Origin: Prochlorococcus sp. AG-347-I04
GTDB taxonomy: Bacteria > Cyanobacteriota > Cyanobacteriia > PCC-6307 > Cyanobiaceae
DNA: 64,000 nucleotides
Reading direction: 5' to 3'
Assembly: GCA_003281625.1 (NCBI GenBank)
Contig: QCBL01000004.1
Location: forward strand, 1 to 64,000
The notes beneath the pieces are model-generated. The model saw nothing but the letters and a program-made list of their open reading frames with translations, did not search any database and had not been told where the DNA came from. Each line of letters opens with the position of its first letter. Positions within the stretch are counted from its first letter, which is position 1. Positions 2,302-57,520 of the stretch are shown here, piece after piece. A program made the translations under genes and the position numbers.

Positions 2302-4005
2302 ATGTCAACCAAATCTGATTCATTAAAAGGAAAGCTTACAGAAAATTTTTCTGAATTTTCTCAACTATCTGACTATTCTTTTATAGATTCTCTTAAAGCA
2401 GATCCTCAATCAACAAAAGATGGGAATGATCATAAACCGCGTTCAGTATATTCGGGTCATTACGTACCAGTTGTTCCAACTGCTATTCCAGAACCAGAAT
2501 ATATTTCACATAGCAACAAACTTTTTAAGGAACTAAGGCTAAGTTCAGAACTTACTAAAGACAAAAATTTTTGTCGTTTTTTCTCAGGTGATATTTCTGT
2601 TGCTAATTATCCAATGAGTCCTGTTGGTTGGGCAACAGGTTATGCATTATCAATTTACGGTACTGAATATACCCAGCAATGTCCCTTTGGCACTGGCAAT
2701 GGTTATGGCGATGGCAGAGCAATTTCTGTTTTTGAAGGTTTATTCAATGGGAAGAGAATGGAAATGCAACTTAAAGGCGGAGGTCCAACTCCCTACTGTC
2801 GTGGAGCAGATGGTAGAGCTGTCTTAAGGTCTAGCGTAAGAGAATTTCTTGCACAGGAATTAATGGATGCCTTTGGAATCCCTACCTCAAGATCTTTAAC
2901 ACTTTATGTCTCACGTTCAGAAATAGTTAGAAGACCGTGGTATTCCAAAGGGTCAAGGTATTTTGAACCTGACATCATGATTGATAATCTAGCGGCAATT
3001 ACTACAAGAGTCGCTCCATCTTTTTTACGTATAGGCCAGATTGAACTTTTTGCAAGACGAGTTAGAGATAATGCGCATGATGAGGCCCTCAATGAACTAA
3101 AGATGATAGTTAAACATCTTATTGATAGAAATTATAAAGATGAAATTGAATATGAGATTTCAATTGAAAGTAAGATAATAAAACTGGCATCTTTATACAG
3201 ATCAAGACTTATATCACTTATAGCCAACTGGATGCGAGTTGGTTATTGCCAGGGTAATTTCAATAGTGATAATTGTGCTGCTGGAGGTTATACCTTGGAT
3301 TATGGCCCCTTTGGATTCTGTGAATTATTTGATCCAAGATTTCAACCATGGACAGGTGGAGGTGAGCATTTCTCATTTTTCAACCAACCTTCTGCTGCGG
3401 CAATCAACTTTAAAACATTCTGTTCCTCTCTTAGTCCGTTACTTTCCGGAAACAAACAAGATCAAGAAAAGTTAGATCAAATCGAAAAGGATTTTTCAAA
3501 ATTGATGAACAAAGAGTTGAAGAAAATGTGGGCAAACAAGCTTGGTTTAGAACGTTACAACGAAACTCTAATAAATGAATTTTTTAATCTCATGGTCATT
3601 TCAAAAGCAGACTATACAATTTTGTTCCGTAAACTCTCTGAAATACCTGATAACTTAGATTCTTTAAAAGATAGTTTCTATTTTCCAATTGATGATGAGC
3701 TCAATAATAGGTGGGAAGTGTGGCTTAAAAACTGGCAATCAATCTTGAAGAAAGAGGGAAATATTAAAGCGAAATCTACCTCAATGAAATCCCTTAATCC
3801 AGTTTATACTTGGCGCGAATGGATGGTCGTTCCCGCATATGAAGAAGCTGAAAAAGGTAATTACAAAAAAATAAAAGAGTTACAGGATGTCTTTAGCAAT
3901 CCATATATAGAGCAACCCTCAGAAATAGATCAAAAATATAATCTACTAAAGCCAAGCCAGTATTTTAACTATGGGGGAGTATCTCACTACAGCTGTTCTT
4001 CATAA
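2302..4005 (+). CDS. selO: SelO-type protein adenylyltransferase (YdiU/UPF0061 family)
   Basis: SelO proteins have a pseudokinase fold that transfers AMP from ATP to Ser/Thr/Tyr of target proteins, linked to redox stress. Family signatures are clear: GYGDGRA near residue 137, a KGGGPTPYCRGADGRAVLRS block near 160-178, NSDN and DYGPFGF near 325-338. The C-terminus SCSS matches the end of the family, with Cys at the third-from-last position where human SelO has selenocysteine. I prefer the ATG at 2302 over a TTG three bases upstream. At 567 aa it is longer than the bacterial norm of about 480, through an N-terminal extension and internal insertions. No operon partner. Confidence 0.9.
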   Translation: MSTKSDSLKGKLTENFSEFSQLSDYSFIDSLKADPQSTKDGNDHKPRSVYSGHYVPVVPTAIPEPEYISHSNKLFKELRLSSELTKDKNFCRFFSGDISVANYPMSPVGWATGYALSIYGTEYTQQCPFGTGNGYGDGRAISVFEGLFNGKRMEMQLKGGGPTPYCRGADGRAVLRSSVREFLAQELMDAFGIPTSRSLTLYVSRSEIVRRPWYSKGSRYFEPDIMIDNLAAITTRVAPSFLRIGQIELFARRVRDNAHDEALNELKMIVKHLIDRNYKDEIEYEISIESKIIKLASLYRSRLISLIANWMRVGYCQGNFNSDNCAAGGYTLDYGPFGFCELFDPRFQPWTGGGEHFSFFNQPSAAAINFKTFCSSLSPLLSGNKQDQEKLDQIEKDFSKLMNKELKKMWANKLGLERYNETLINEFFNLMVISKADYTILFRKLSEIPDNLDSLKDSFYFPIDDELNNRWEVWLKNWQSILKKEGNIKAKSTSMKSLNPVYTWREWMVVPAYEEAEKGNYKKIKELQDVFSNPYIEQPSEIDQKYNLLKPSQYFNYGGVSHYSCSS

Positions 4006-17227: not shown

Positions 17228-17254
17228 TATAGTTAAAGTGTAGCGTAGACTACA
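17228..17254 (+). promoter_or_regulatory. Promoter with NtcA motif overlapping the start site
   Basis: A TATAGT -10 element at 17228-17233 predicts a start near 17240. TGTAGCGTAGACTACA at 17239-17254 contains a perfect GTA-N8-TAC and is also a 5-bp inverted repeat. A site overlapping the start normally represses, as known for gif genes of other cyanobacteria. The repeat could instead act as an RNA hairpin at the 5' end of the transcript. Confidence 0.5.
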
Positions 17255-17256
17255 TA

Positions 17257-17310
17257 AACGTTCATCTCGTTCTACGAGCCGCATTAAGATTGAAGCCAAG
17301 GAACGGGGAC
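17257..17310 (+). promoter_or_regulatory. Candidate glutamine-riboswitch-like leader (glnA/Downstream-peptide type)
   Basis: A closing stem CGTTC (17259-17263) with GAACG (17301-17305) encloses a hairpin CTCGT-TCT-ACGAG (17266-17278). The flanks CGTTCATC and AAGGAACG match the conserved 5' and 3' blocks of the cyanobacterial glnA/Downstream-peptide glutamine aptamers, which characteristically precede small-protein genes. The middle block (GCCGCATTAAG) matches only loosely. TGAAG at 17291-17295 can alternatively pair with CTTCA at 17310-17314, which offers a switching helix near the start codon at 17322. Confidence 0.5.
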
Positions 17311-17321
17311 TTCAGTCAAAA

Positions 17322-17651
17322 ATGAAATTTAGTCACATAACTATTATGTCTAATAACGTATCTACCTCAGTAAGTAGTAACAATATTACTGCTGTATTTG
17401 CAGGTTTTCTTGGAGCATTTATTGTTGGTTCTCTTGGAGTCCAACTTGTAAGAACCCAAAAGCCTTCTTTCCAATCTCAACCATTAAAAGTTCAACCAGT
17501 TATCGCTCATCAATCAACTTTATGGACAGCTTTAGGAGAACAAGATACTCCTATTGCTAGAAATAAAGTTTCTAATGTAAAAACAACAGGAGTTGTCCCT
17601 GTAATAGGTTCTGAAGCAACTCTTTGGGCTCCTCTAGGTTTAGGTAATTAG
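17322..17651 (+). CDS. Membrane protein with duplicated TLWxxLG motif, unknown
   Basis: The product of up to 109 aa has one membrane helix (about residues 24-44, AVFAGFLGAFIVGSLGVQLV) and a soluble tail. The tail holds an internal repeat: VQPVIAHQSTLWTALG and VVPVIGSEATLWAPLG share 9 of 16 residues. Translation may start at the ATG at 17346 (MSNNVSTS) rather than 17322, because neither ATG has a clear ribosome-binding site. The gene follows the candidate riboswitch and ends in a strong terminator, so it is monocistronic. Function unknown; nitrogen control is inferred. Confidence 0.7.
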   Translation: MKFSHITIMSNNVSTSVSSNNITAVFAGFLGAFIVGSLGVQLVRTQKPSFQSQPLKVQPVIAHQSTLWTALGEQDTPIARNKVSNVKTTGVVPVIGSEATLWAPLGLGN

Positions 17652-17677
17652 TAAATTAGGTCTTTTAATAAACCGAA

Positions 17678-17700
17678 GGGGGTTTTAACCCCCTTTTTTT
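17678..17700 (+). terminator. Rho-independent terminator
   Basis: GGGGG-TTTTAA-CCCCC followed by seven T residues, 27 bp after the stop of the gene at 17322. Confidence 0.9.
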
Positions 17701-17782
17701 ATTAATTCCATTAAAAAGATGATTGAAAATTTTTAATCCAATTCATGGATAATTATAAATTAAATCAGGGTTTGAAAACAAT

Positions 17783-17825
17783 GTAATCGTAGATACCAAC
17801 AGCTTTTTTATTAATTGATTATAAA
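17783..17825 (+). promoter_or_regulatory. Class II NtcA promoter driving an unknown transcript
   Basis: GTAATCGTAGATAC at 17783-17796 is a perfect GTA-N8-TAC. TATAAA at 17820-17825 follows after exactly 23 nt. Transcription would start near 17831. The first 50 nt can fold with AACGG (17831-17835) pairing to CCGTT (17875-17879) and AACC (17841-17844) to GGTT (17867-17870). The product could be a small RNA, a structured leader for the gene at 17952, or both. Confidence 0.6.
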
Positions 17826-17951
17826 TTAAAAACGGGAGTTAACCTATTTCAATTTGTTGACTCTGAGGTTTTAACCGTTGAATCCTTATCTACTTCAAGT
17901 TGTGACTCGCTAGTTTCAAGATTCAAAAACGGTATTTACACATATTAAATT

Positions 17952-18089
17952 ATGGAAAAAAAAATCTCAAAGAAATACGCCGATTTTATAGTCCAGGCTA
18001 ATAATTCAACTTTCAGAAAAGAAGCTTTGTCATTGATTAAACAAGCGACAAAATTAAAAACCAAACTTGATCAATACGAAATGATATAG
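17952..18089 (+). CDS. 45-aa basic protein downstream of an NtcA promoter
   Basis: The product (MEKKISKKYADFIVQANNS...) is Lys-rich, soluble and probably two helices. No family recognised. It would have a leader of about 120 nt from the NtcA promoter at 17783. Small basic proteins under nitrogen control in cyanobacteria include glutamine-synthetase inactivating factors, but I see no specific similarity and make no assignment. Confidence 0.45.
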   Translation: MEKKISKKYADFIVQANNSTFRKEALSLIKQATKLKTKLDQYEMI

Positions 18090-18201
18090 TCTCTTAAAAT
18101 CTACAGGATATTCAAGATGAGGTAGAAACTAGTTCCTTTTTTTTATCCTGCTAAAAAAAATACTAAGAGATTATTTAAATTCTCTGCTTTAATAAAAGAT
18201 C

Positions 18202-19599: not shown

Positions 19600-19728
19600 T
19601 TAGAAAATACCTGGAAGAATTTGACCAGTAAAATAGTAGGCTCCTACAAGAGCAAACATTCCAAGCATTGCTGCTTTACCATTAAGCTTTTCAGCTTTTT
19701 CGGTCATGATTTTTTTTGCGAATTCCAT
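19600..19728 (-). CDS. hli: High-light-inducible protein
   Basis: This is a 42-aa single-helix chlorophyll-binding protein of the Hlip/SCP family. It has the family core EKLNGKAAMLGMFALVGAYYFTGQ and the TGQILPGIF end, including the chlorophyll-binding E-x2-N-x2-A-M-x-G pattern. Such proteins protect photosystem assembly under light and nutrient stress. A class II NtcA promoter lies directly upstream, which predicts induction by nitrogen limitation. Confidence 0.9.
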   Translation of the reverse strand: MEFAKKIMTEKAEKLNGKAAMLGMFALVGAYYFTGQILPGIF

Positions 19729-19754
19729 AAAAAAGTGAAATAAATTATATCTAA

Positions 19755-19796
19755 AAAATAATTATTCAAATTTCAGAATGATGTAGTTTTTTCTAC
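19755..19796 (-). promoter_or_regulatory. Class II NtcA promoter of hli
   Basis: GTAGTTTTTTCTAC at 19783-19796 is a perfect GTA-N8-TAC. On the minus strand, TATTTT (19760 down to 19755) fits TA-N3-T at exactly 22 nt. A start near 19748 leaves a leader of about 20 nt before the hli ATG. Confidence 0.7.
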
Positions 19797-20032
19797 CAAA
19801 TTGATATCTTTCTAAGGATTTAAAAATAAATACTTAAACAACAAATTGAACTCTCAATAGTTTTCGAGCCAATCTGTAAAGCGTAGCAAGCCTAAAAAAC
19901 AACTATTTAAATATATACGTCACGAATCTGTCACAGTTATGTAGTAAATATCTTGAAAATAACTTAATTTCAGCTTAATACTTTACATTTGTTAATAGTA
20001 GTGTTACATTATTTAACAATTACACAATTTTA

Positions 20033-20239
20033 ATGGCTAATTCAAACGTTACTACTGAATCAGGTGGCAGACAAAATATGTTTCCTACTGAGACACGTCC
20101 TTACATAGATGAGTCTGTTTCTTACGACAGCTACCCACAAAATGCAGAAAAAGTTAACGGTCGTTGGGCAATGATAGGCCTTGTTGCGTTAGTAGGTGCT
20201 TACGTTTCAACCGGACAAATTATTCCTGGCATTTTTTAA
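20033..20239 (+). CDS. hli: High-light-inducible protein
   Basis: The 68-aa Hlip has a polar N-terminal arm of about 38 residues followed by the core EKVNGRWAMIGLVALVGAYV and TGQIIPGIF. The stop codon overlaps the ATG of the next hli by one base (TAATG), so the genes are translationally coupled. First gene of a four-gene unit closed by a terminator at 20864. Confidence 0.93.
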   Translation: MANSNVTTESGGRQNMFPTETRPYIDESVSYDSYPQNAEKVNGRWAMIGLVALVGAYVSTGQIIPGIF

Positions 20240-20499
20240 TGAGTCCACTTTCATGTTTCTTAGCAGTCATTGTATTCTTTACAGCCATCCTCGTTGCTTA
20301 TTTAACCAAGCAATTTCAAAACGAAAATTTAAACTATTCATCTTCTAATCAAATGAAAAACACAAACACAAAGGTCAAAACAATCGAAAAAGAAAAAGTT
20401 GTTGCTGAAACTCTTAACGGCAGATTCGCAATGCTTGGATTAATTGCTGCTGTTGGAGCATACTTAACAACAGGTCAAATAATTCCTGGTTTCGTTTAA
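20239..20499 (+). CDS. hli: Two-helix high-light-inducible-type protein
   Basis: The 86-aa product has an N-terminal membrane helix (CFLAVIVFFTAILVAYL) that ordinary Hlips lack. A polar Lys/Asn-rich linker and a standard C-terminal Hlip helix follow (AETLNGRFAMLGLIAAVGAY, TGQIIPGFV). The ATG at 20239 overlaps the preceding stop; upstream in-frame sequence to 20164 only shadows the previous gene. The extra helix may tether it to a partner or form a two-helix antenna-like unit. Confidence 0.85.
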   Translation: MSPLSCFLAVIVFFTAILVAYLTKQFQNENLNYSSSNQMKNTNTKVKTIEKEKVVAETLNGRFAMLGLIAAVGAYLTTGQIIPGFV

Positions 20500-20533
20500 A
20501 ACCTATTTTTTAACATCTCTACAAATCAGAAAA

Positions 20534-20662
20534 ATGGAAAATTCAAAAACAACTTATTGGCAAAACGCCGAGAGAACTAATGGAAGAATGGCAATGATGG
20601 GCTTATTTGCATTAGTTGTAAATTATGGCTTATTCGGATGGATAATCCCAGGAATTTTTTAA
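20534..20662 (+). CDS. hli: High-light-inducible protein, divergent 42-aa form
   Basis: The product carries WQNAERTNGRMAMMGLFALV, with the E-R-x-N-G-R-x-A-M signature, and ends WIIPGIF. The TGQ tripeptide of the other copies is replaced by LFG. The stop overlaps by nothing but abuts the next ATG (TAA then ATG). It is third in the hli unit. Confidence 0.9.
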   Translation: MENSKTTYWQNAERTNGRMAMMGLFALVVNYGLFGWIIPGIF

Positions 20663-20900: not shown

Positions 20901-20920
20901 ATGAGAAAAAACATTTGTAA

Positions 20921-20956
20921 AAAAAAGAGATTGTTTCTTAGCTAAAAACAATCTCT
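20921..20956 (-). terminator. Terminator for the minus-strand membrane gene
   Basis: AGAGATTGTTT (20926-20936) pairs with AAACAATCTCT (20946-20956). An A tract precedes it on the plus strand, so it functions for minus-strand transcripts arriving from 21265. Confidence 0.7.
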
Positions 20957-21049
20957 AAATTACCTAATTCTTACATGAAAATTTCAAGTAAGCTTTCAGA
21001 TCTTAACTGATTTGTTTTTATAGTAAATCCGTAAAAATGCTTTTGTAAT

Positions 21050-43019: not shown

Positions 43020-44385
43020 TAGTTTACTTAGAGCCCCTAACCAGAGTATTGAAGAAACTGGTTACGCTTGGTACGTAGGTAACGCCAGATTAATTAATTT
43101 ATCTGGCCGTTTACTCGGAGCTCATATTGCACACACTGGTCTCATCGTTTTTTGGGCCGGTGCAATGATGTTATTCGAAGTAAGTCATTTCACATTTGAT
43201 AAACCAATGTGGGAACAAGGCTTAATTTGTATGCCTCACGTTGCAATGTTTGGATTTGGAATAGGTCCTGGTGGAGAAGTTACTGATGTATACCCATTCT
43301 TTGTGGCTGGTGTTATGCATTTAATTTCCTCTGCAGTTTTAGGATTTGGTGGTATCTACCATTCTTTAGCAGGTCCTGAAAAACTTGAGCAAGATTTTCC
43401 TTTCTTTTCAACAGATTGGAGAGATAAGAATCAAATGACTAATATCCTCGGTTATCACCTTATAGTTTTAGGCGTTGGTGCATTATTTTTCGTTTTTGAT
43501 TGGATGTTCATTGGAGGGGCTTATGACACATGGGCACCTGGTGGTGGAGAAGTTAGGTTAGTTAGTCCTACCTTAGATCCAAGAGTTATACTTGGTTACC
43601 TATTTAGGTCTCCTTGGGGTGGCGCTGGTTCAATAATCGGTGTTAACTCTATAGAAGATATAGTTGGTGGTCACGTATATGTTGGAATTACCGCAATAAT
43701 CGGTGGTCTTTTCCATATCTTTACTAAACCATTTGGATGGGCAAGAAGAGCATTCATCTGGAATGGTGAAGGACTATTAAGTTATGCTCTTGGTGGAATT
43801 TGTGTAGCAAGTTTTATTGCTTCAACATTCATCTGGTTTAACAACACTGCTTACCCTTCAGAGTTTTATGGCCCAACAAATGCTGAAGCTTCACAGGCTC
43901 AAAGCTTTACTTTCCTTGTGAGAGACCAAAGAATTGGAGCTAACGTAGGTTCAACAATGGGACCAACAGGTCTAGGTAAGTATCTCATGAGATCTCCTAC
44001 TGGTGAAATTATATTTGGTGGTGAAACAATGAGATTTTGGGATTTCAGAGGTCCATGGTTAGAGCCTTTAAGAGGACCTAACGGATTGAGCCTTGAGAAA
44101 ATTCAAAATGATATTCAGCCTTGGCAGGTAAGAAGAGCTGCTGAATATATGACTCATGCTCCTAACGCTTCTATCAACTCTGTTGGTGGAATCATTACAG
44201 AGCCAAATGCTGTTAACTTCGTTAATTTAAGACAATGGTTAGCTGCAGCCCAATTCTTCCTTGGATGGTTTACATTTATCGGTCACCTTTGGCATGCTGG
44301 ACGTGCTAGAGCTGCCGCTGCTGGTTTCGAGAAAGGAATCGACAGAAAGAGTGAACCAGCTCTAGAAATGCCAGATCTAGATTAA
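43003..44385 (+). CDS. psbC: Photosystem II CP43 protein
   Basis: CP43 is the 460-aa inner antenna of photosystem II, with six helices and one ligand to the Mn cluster. I chose the GTG at 43003 ([14 protein letters not shown]), inside the end of psbD. The GTG-start overlap with psbD is the classic arrangement in cyanobacteria. The upstream in-frame Met is psbD-overlapping sequence. Blocks such as [20 protein letters not shown] and [20 protein letters not shown] are typical. A terminator follows at 44406. Confidence 0.98.
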
Positions 44386-57227: not shown

Positions 57228-57318
57228 TAAAAAAGACCCCTATAAAGAGGTCTTTCATGGAATTACCAAATGTAGTGTTTCCTTGTTTCCACTCTTTTGG
57301 TAAACCACTCCTTCACAC
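57228..57318 (-). ncRNA. yfr2: Yfr2-family small RNA
   Basis: On the minus strand a stem TTACCAAA/TTTGGTAA encloses AGTG/CACT, whose loop carries the duplicated GGAAACAAGGAAACA motif diagnostic of Yfr2 RNAs. It ends in a terminator, AAAGACC (57232-57238) pairing with GGTCTTT (57249-57255) and then a T run. A TAGATT -10 (57330 down to 57325) predicts a start near 57318 and a length of about 90 nt, as in known Yfr2 RNAs. Targets cannot be predicted here. Confidence 0.75.
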
Positions 57319-57520
57319 AGACTAAATCTATTTCATATTTTTCTTTTCCGTGGAAGTGGAAAATGGAATATTACTAAACTGTCACATGTGTCAGTTACCT
57401 CTTCCATGAAATTTTTCATCTAAGTTATCTCATTTAGAGAAGAGGGAGTTTACTTATCAGAATGAGTTCCCTGTAAAAATTTTTAAGGGAAATGCACAAA
57501 TATGTAAAGTATCAATTATT
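57319..57520. other. Intergenic stretch upstream of the Yfr2-like RNA
   Basis: This 200-base stretch contains the RNA's promoter and no supported gene. A minus-strand open frame running through the RNA (57263-57370) lacks a start codon and is explained by the RNA itself. Confidence 0.5.

Follow-up and report, generated by a model that had tools for sequence, protein, structure and literature searches.

A conserved structured leader behind an NtcA-type promoter precedes a small-protein gene in Prochlorococcus and shows complementarity to another conserved element

The 64,000-nt stretch of Prochlorococcus sp. AG-347-I04 DNA analyzed here (the window) carries, on its plus strand, a 121-nt leader (17831..17951) that lies between an NtcA-type promoter and the gene for a 45-aa basic protein, and alignments, covariance models and covariation firmly identify it as a conserved, duplicated and structured element, limited to this genus in our sample and predicted to form a 5' UTR. 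The layout at 17783-18089 had been picked out from the letters alone (the sequence-only reading), and all positions claimed for it, including those of the box, the −10 element and the 45-aa frame, proved correct when the window was re-read. New beyond that reading are the duplication, the neighboring glutamine-II riboswitches and the complementarity between the leader and another conserved element.

Genome scans with a covariance model built from 20 leaders (R1) listed 84 copies in 68 of the 151 Prochlorococcus genomes sampled, and in 25 of the 51 with a completeness of 90% or more. Of 201 genomes of the family scanned with a second model (R2), 3 carried the leader, each of them from this genus, and the 58 other genera sampled had none; both scans used strict filters, by which weak matches can be lost. 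Of the copies listed, 71 were fetched for comparison and 13 were left out. No Rfam family matched 17831-17951 above its gathering score. The leader is duplicated together with its ORF: in a DNA search with 17760-17951, the C1 copy of the same genome was 84% identical over 17761-17938, although the 2 proteins are just 60% identical. Representatives of the 3 copy classes share 72-81% leader identity (three pairs), compared to synonymous differences of 0.46-0.67 in the ORF between the classes, and the leader is thus constrained beyond the promoter, be it as RNA or as DNA.

The box, GTAATCGTAGATAC (17783..17796), is an exact GTA-N8-TAC and is followed after 23 nt by the −10 element TATAAA (17820..17825), both on the plus strand. 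On its own, GTA-N8-TAC is weak evidence: the window contains 12 such sites against 6.67 ± 2.61 in shuffles, 12 being reached in 2 of 100. The shuffles give about one chance site per 10 kb, rarer than the once in 3 kb that had been estimated. The suggestion that the −10 spacing strengthens the box holds in that GTA-N8-TAC-N22-23-TATAA has a single occurrence in the window, at this site, but the layout alone is only suggestive (at least 1 occurrence in 15 of 200 shuffled windows), and it is therefore conservation that decides the call of an NtcA-type promoter. An exact GTA-N8-TAC is present in 69 of the 71 leader copies, with a variable N8 that takes 13 forms (e.g., GTAATCGTAGATAC and GTAGTAATAAATAC), and 68 of these 69 have a −10 hexamer (TATAA, TATATA, TATGA and TAAATA types were accepted) 22 to 23 nt from the box, although the letters of the spacer change. 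The sequence-only reading had asked whether relatives that keep the ORF lose the motif; among the 69 copies whose ORF is intact, 67 have the exact box, the exceptions, L049 and L078, being the only two of the 71 without it. L073 and L082 keep the box and lack the 45-aa ORF. The site resembles class II NtcA promoters in its palindrome GTA-N8-TAC, in a sigma70-type −10 element at about 22 nt and in a box center near −41.5, transcription being expected to start near 17831 from the position of the −10 element. The usual −10 element of NtcA promoters has the form TA-N3-T. Of the "ideal NtcA activator layout" that had been claimed, the box and the spacing stand, whereas TATAAA shares 5 of 6 letters with TATAAT and is not TA-N3-T; a strict TA-N3-T search on the plus strand of the window did not return the 17783 site. 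These points, the departure from TA-N3-T and the appearance of similar layouts in shuffles, are what would speak for a chance box and a promoter outside NtcA control, which we nevertheless regard as a very slight possibility, considering that the ends of the box are kept throughout nearly all copies while N8 changes and that the spacing is kept with them. Sequence and conservation across copies thus firmly support the proposed NtcA-type promoter, at which NtcA would be expected to bind and to confer induction by nitrogen shortage.

The 45-aa frame (17952..18089, plus strand, ATG..TAG) is intact after 69 of the 71 leaders; in L073 it is frameshifted and in L082 a different 92-aa ORF follows the box and leader. 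In six comparisons with 68 of the 71 copies, pooled dN/dS is 0.19-0.25 within the 3 copy classes, as defined from their sequences; between classes it is 0.12-0.20, with synonymous sites close to saturation. As had been proposed, the frame is a real gene, with purifying selection acting on the protein. Family members (E ≤ 0.001) were found in 142 of the 151 genus genomes, including all 51 of those at least 90% complete, and a protein search returned, among the matches listed, at least 78 titled Prochlorococcus and at least 2 from uncultured Synechococcaceae. The AG-347-I04 genome itself has 3 members, namely, that of the window, the C1 copy and a C29 copy with 47% identity (G000:C29:2609-2734), the latter being followed, 762 bp further on, by a glutamine-II riboswitch (3496-3558) and having no leader match by search and no box visible by eye. 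The protein alignment comprises 38 sequences, i.e., 37 of the 43 distinct ORFs and the C29 copy, and the predicted fold is a plain helical hairpin (helices 2-18 and 22-44; mean pLDDT 88.9), hydrophilic, lysine-rich and, judged by eye, not a membrane peptide. The protein had no match over the Pfam or NCBIfam cut-offs, DUF4278 included; the best matches below threshold (Pfam, E 0.11; NCBIfam, 0.011, far below cut-off), a PHROGs match (0.0074) that covers only part of a longer profile and a single match to a solved structure (E 0.05) were not taken. By analogy, the protein is perhaps a small interactor in nitrogen metabolism. The window copy deviates from the others at residue 21 (G to F; 18012-18014) and in the leader loop (17843-17850), and would be a decaying or diverging duplicate or else reflect sequence errors of the draft genome. 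A further ORF, mostly an open frame of 84-115 aa (e.g., G000:C8:55065-55163), matches the family weakly (E 5e-8 to 2e-6) in 20 of 20 genomes searched.

The comparison of leader copies reveals compensatory changes and indicates that the leader is structured. Stem-loop 1 (SL1; 17833..17865, plus strand), whose stem is formed around GAGTTAAC and GTTGACTC, has 10 pairs with 97.0% of the cells paired, 4 of which are changed on both sides, with U-G replaced by G-U in 12 rows; its loop reads CCCGTTCC in 63 of the 71 copies and CCTATTTC in the window copy. Helix 2 (17874..17933, plus strand) pairs ACCGTT (17874-17879) with AACGGT (17928-17933) and encloses a terminal arm; 98.1% of the cells in its 6 pairs are paired, and 2 pairs are changed on both sides, each compensated in one row. 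The terminal hairpin, which differs between the classes (71.8% of cells paired), is weakly supported. In the alignment of 63 distinct rows and 24 pairs, 93.2% of the cells are paired, compared to 89.8% in shuffles (none of 500 as high). Both sides are changed in 8 of 24 pairs (reached in 4 of 500 shuffles) and in 33 cells (0 of 500), whereas further pair types are not in excess (490 of 500 shuffles reach the count); the alignment was fitted to the covariance model, and such alignments lean towards the model. A first count with fewer pairs had given 6 of 16 changed on both sides (0 of 500 shuffles). Taken by itself, the window leader has no more stable a fold than expected by chance (z = −0.63; equaled by 51 of 200 shuffles), so that a structure drawn from this single sequence was rejected and the structure rests on comparison. 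The claim that the RNA begins with a stem-loop was right as a prediction, in that SL1 lies near the expected start and is supported by the comparison. Pairing of the SL1 loop with AACGGT within the leader was rejected on the changes in L078, where AACGGT has become AAAGGT and ACCGTT has become ACCTTT while the loop is still CCCGTTCC, which shows that AACGGT pairs with ACCGTT.

The sequence-only reading had left a choice among an sRNA, a small regulatory protein and a dual-function RNA. The small protein is real, and a dual-function RNA is possible, the leader being under constraint of its own. However, because the same ORF follows in 69 of the 71 copies and the scan called no terminator between leader and ORF, the leader more probably serves as a regulated 5' UTR than as an sRNA on its own. 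A T-run 3' of the ORF (18137..18144, plus strand), present in the 30 aligned window-type loci, is a possible transcript end, deduced from the T-run itself since the scan called no terminator-like stem there. In L082 (2736-3122, minus strand), the NtcA-type box and a divergent leader precede the other ORF, and a Yfr11 match lies nearby (L082:2507-2652, plus strand); the leader may be a portable module. In this most divergent copy, the loop letters AACCCGTTCCA persist while the stem has changed.

The leader sits between a 109-aa ORF (17322..17651, plus strand) and a 96-aa ORF. The former, which has no Pfam match and nothing over the NCBIfam cut-offs, lies behind a glutamine-II riboswitch aptamer (17256..17315, plus strand; Rfam RF01704, 63.7 bits) in an upstream transcription unit and is followed by a terminator-like hairpin identified by the terminator scan (17675-17696). 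RF01704 matches 17256-17315 and nothing at 17831-17951, and the leader was therefore rejected as a glutamine-II aptamer. Further upstream are genes for a NarK-family nitrate/nitrite transporter and for MobA-type NTP transferase and MoaA-type proteins, the latter 2 over the Pfam and under the NCBIfam cut-offs. A second exact GTA-N8-TAC, GTAGCGTAGACTAC (17240-17253), lies directly 5' of the riboswitch and 3' of a likely −10 element, possibly in a repressor position. Elsewhere in the window, Rfam matches to IsrR (43417-43600), Yfr19 (20912-20993) and Cyano-1 (57254-57322), all on the minus strand, were obtained, and a cluster of short ORFs with the motif NGR.AM.G occupies 19600-20662; one of these (20534-20662) scores over the Pfam cut-off for Chloroa_b-bind, and we take the cluster to encode, probably, high-light-inducible proteins.

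Several family members are close to glutamine-II riboswitches. Among 53 strong family ORFs from 20 good genomes, 22 have such a riboswitch within 1 kb, compared to about 0.3 expected by our estimate (the count excludes 21 of 74 family hits, whose E values were 5e-8 or weaker, and 1 of 93 riboswitch hits, which fell below the cut-off); the 22 fall into only three position types (C29 type, 15; C1 type, 5; window type, 2) and thus represent few independent events. The C29-type arrangement with the riboswitch is present in 15 of the 20 genomes compared. A riboswitch was found at 15 of 40 leader loci scanned, and none within the fetched flanks of the divergent copies L066-L082. This proximity would fit a reading in which the leader yields an NsiR4-like, nitrogen-induced trans-acting sRNA, whose loop CCCGUUCC invades the riboswitch string GGAACGGG and keeps the corresponding genes off when nitrogen is short. 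The loop is mostly unpaired (0.74-0.77) and is an exact 8-nt complement of 3 of the 5 glutamine-II riboswitches of the genome, but the match does not extend further and the other 2 riboswitches carry GGACGGGG, so that a general pairing of leader and riboswitch is not supported. In the genome as a whole, GGAACGGG, the complement of the SL1 loop, is not in excess (6 sites against 12 for the reversed pattern). The predicted riboswitch duplexes are also weaker than those formed by 2 leaders with the element described below (−29.0 to −34.8 versus −53.2 and −55.2), an uneven comparison, since the riboswitch pieces are shorter. Given these figures and the missing riboswitches around L066-L082, we consider such an sRNA improbable.

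The 6 sites of GGAACGGG comprise 3 glutamine-II riboswitches, the antisense of the C1 leader, 1 coding frame and C8:44841. The last has the sequence TTGGAACGGGTT, which complements AACCCGUUCCAA perfectly over 12 nt, and belongs to a conserved structured intergenic element (G000:C8:44740-44920; L090:1400-1580), at a distance of 547 bp from the pstB 3' end (TIGR00972, 383 bits against a cut-off of 343.2). A DNA search, which may miss divergent copies, found elements of this type in 108 of the 151 genus genomes, and 70 loci from 68 of these 108 were aligned. Among the 70, GGAACGGG is present in 66, TTGGAACGGGTT in 63 and AGACCTCGAGACCTAACAGAAAA in 48, and 52 carry an exact copy of GGTAAGACCTC, the second pairing arm; 37 have a TATAAT among the initial 110 letters of the stretch fetched. 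The element folds better than most shuffles (z = −2.96; 2 of 200 as good), has no Rfam match and is presumably transcribed. Divergent second copies were seen in G104 (L221) and G110 (L240). A phage origin was rejected, there being no phage protein match and the core pattern of the element occurring in no viral contig; one viral contig, phage-like by eye, matches an 18-nt string of the leader, but within a 361-aa coding frame, and the match was taken as chance.

Duplex folding places the complementary segment of the leader at 17841..17876 (plus strand). The duplex spans AACCCGUUCCAA, UUUGUUG, CUC and UGAGGUUUUACC, with 33 pairs in about 35 leader letters; a 5-nt bulge and small loops lie in the element strand. 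Pieces of 60 nt from 4 leader copies reached −43.8 to −50.2 kcal/mol with 95 nt of the element, and in each case none of 1,000 shuffled elements was as good; the window copy, which has lost part of the loop (CCTATTTC), reached −33.3 kcal/mol, a marginal result (15 of 1,000 shuffles as good). When a leader was used as the query against 464 kb of DNA from its own genome (400 kb and the window; 23,158 segments), the element came first after the leader's own antisense (−44.0, the next being −36.9). The second-best duplex, C8:39281, falls inside a 328-aa coding frame. The R2 leader model also weakly matches the antisense of the element in G042 (E 0.0051).

By energy alone, about 0.2 equally good matches would be expected per genome (an estimate extrapolated from the tail of the scan), which leaves room for an ordinary NtcA-regulated small-protein gene whose leader is conserved under other constraints and whose complementarity is a coincidence. 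Co-occurrence of the 2 elements does not speak against this: the element was found in 50 of 68 genomes with the leader and in 58 of 83 others (Fisher p 0.72), with 18 leader genomes lacking an element match and 58 element genomes lacking a leader match. Moreover, the linker is mostly paired (predicted unpaired 0.01-0.37 in 8 copies, compared to 0.74-0.77 for the SL1 loop in 7 copies and 0.55-0.84 for the element loop), and the window copy is degraded. Yet the complementary stretches are colinear and conserved in both leader and element, the leader carries compensatory changes and the loop AACCCGTTCCA is retained in L082 despite the changed stem. Conservation on both sides makes chance complementarity less likely, an argument to which no formal number is attached, and we rate coincidence as doubtful. 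Since co-occurrence is lacking and loop changes in the G043 and G021 leaders are not mirrored in their elements, leader and element are not filed as an established sRNA-target pair; pairing in trans is a plausible proposal.

The region of the AUG is predicted to be unpaired at 0.33-0.72 in the free leader and at 0.33-0.66 when the pairing segment is blocked, a change of at most 0.13. Occlusion of the ribosome-binding site by the second RNA was rejected on this ground, and simple occlusion being unlikely, control from a distant upstream site, control of stability or titration are left. The same figures bear on a leader that would act in cis, as a riboswitch-like or protein-binding sensor of the 45-aa gene, with a historical or incidental antisense resemblance to the C8 element. 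Such a sensor would account for the structured, covarying leader, for the same ORF 3' of it in 69 of 71 copies and for their joint duplication, and the glutamine-II aptamers of the genus show that leaders of small ORFs can be sensors. However, helix 2 ends 18 nt before the AUG, the start region shows no consistent sequestration, the leader has no Rfam match, and both its SL1 loop and its linker, which are conserved, have their complement in a further conserved element. We regard a cis-acting sensor as possible but rather unlikely.

The explanation that we favor, and to which we would give an even chance, is an NtcA-activated small-protein mRNA whose 5' UTR is the target or the decoy of a C8-type RNA. 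Under nitrogen shortage, NtcA would bind the box at about −41.5 and a monocistronic transcript would start near 17831, consisting of the 121-nt structured leader and then the frame of the 45-aa basic helical-hairpin protein. The leader would be conserved because it is read as RNA: in SL1, the loop AACCCGUUCCAA and the 3' side (UUUGUUG..CUC), together with the linker GAGGUUUUACC, would pair in trans with the RNA encoded near pstB, which would either tune the stability of the small-protein mRNA or its translation from a distant upstream site, or be titrated. Both the encounter of the 2 RNAs and the direction of control are proposals. The more specific proposal that the leader is a nitrogen-induced decoy (sponge) for the pstB-side RNA, with the same CCCGUUCC loop also able to invade the pseudoknots of glutamine-II riboswitches, seems to us unlikely.

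An mRNA for a peptide with a structured 5' UTR, bound far upstream of its start codon by a trans-encoded antisense RNA, is also the plan of a type I toxin-antitoxin pair. In tisB/IstR-1, the trans-encoded antisense RNA acts far upstream of the start codon, at the standby site of tisB. The pairing site about 75-110 nt upstream of the AUG, the structured leader, the peptide 3' of it and the several paralogues all recall that arrangement. A hydrophilic, lysine-rich product that by eye is no membrane peptide, an NtcA-type promoter and the many genomes in which leader or element occurs without the other do not, and a toxin-antitoxin-like pair is, in our judgment, highly improbable.

The favored explanation would thus, by analogy, work like an NtcA-controlled small-protein mRNA that is under the control of an sRNA or acts as a decoy. 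Among known systems, the sRNA NsiR4 is activated by NtcA. In other cyanobacteria, NsiR4 is highly expressed under nitrogen limitation and acts on the mRNAs of small regulators (PMC9196836), and the likeness lies in this mode of action, an RNA of nitrogen limitation acting on mRNAs for small regulatory proteins; NsiR4 is a free sRNA, whereas the RNA described here is the predicted 5' UTR of a small ORF and matches no Rfam family. In MED4, Yfr28 (72 nt, between ftsQ and ftsZ) rises in nitrogen starvation (PMC7368042); the leader was rejected as Yfr28, being located between the 109-aa riboswitch ORF and the 96-aa ORF. Yfr2 of MED4, which is regulated by a GntR protein, also rises in nitrogen starvation, and Yfr1 and Yfr2 have nearly complementary conserved motifs (PMC7368042, PMC6778093), which makes them, as far as the excerpts of these papers go, the closest precedent for a complementary pair of Prochlorococcus RNAs. 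Unlike the leader, none of Yfr28, Yfr1 and Yfr2 is described in those excerpts as leading into a gene for a small protein. Yfr9 of MED4 is a 290-nt RNA with a conserved 44-aa frame, found in high-light strains only; it is overlapped in cis by Yfr8 and has been discussed with phage infection, and Yfr6/Yfr14 and Yfr8/Yfr9 have been proposed as toxin-antitoxin candidates (PMC2518516). Compared by description, as excerpted, Yfr9 and the 45-aa gene are similar in size and plan and kinship is possible; the cis overlap with Yfr8 and the connection with phage infection set Yfr9 apart. Glutamine-II riboswitches (RF01704) occur with DUF4278 small proteins (PMC6316151), and the ORF behind the C5 riboswitch of the AG-347-I04 genome indeed matches DUF4278 (31.9 bits against a cut-off of 25.3). 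They, too, are nitrogen-linked structured leaders of small ORFs in the same genus, adjacent to the leader here, and share the string GGAACGGG with the C8 element; unlike in that system, the leader has no RF01704 match and the 45-aa protein no DUF4278 match. Cyanobacterial nitrogen control also involves the short proteins PirA, IF7/IF17, NirP1 and PirN (PMC6316151), which, so far as the excerpted account describes them, the 45-aa protein resembles in being short and from which it differs in its plain two-helix hairpin and its lack of a match over the Pfam and NCBIfam cut-offs.

Neither the leader nor the C8 element is in Rfam or was recognized in the literature surveyed; an earlier description elsewhere is possible. 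Prochlorococcus has few protein regulators, and the findings suggest, from sequence comparison, a nitrogen-linked RNA pair in this genus. The regulation of its glutamine synthetase has been described as unclear (PMC6316151, in the part excerpted). With the NtcA-type leader, the small protein and the complementary element placed at exact coordinates, the RNA pair becomes directly testable, and if the sponge reading were true, it would amount to a genus-wide RNA-RNA switch that joins the sensing of 2-oxoglutarate (through NtcA) and of glutamine (through the riboswitch) with a small protein.
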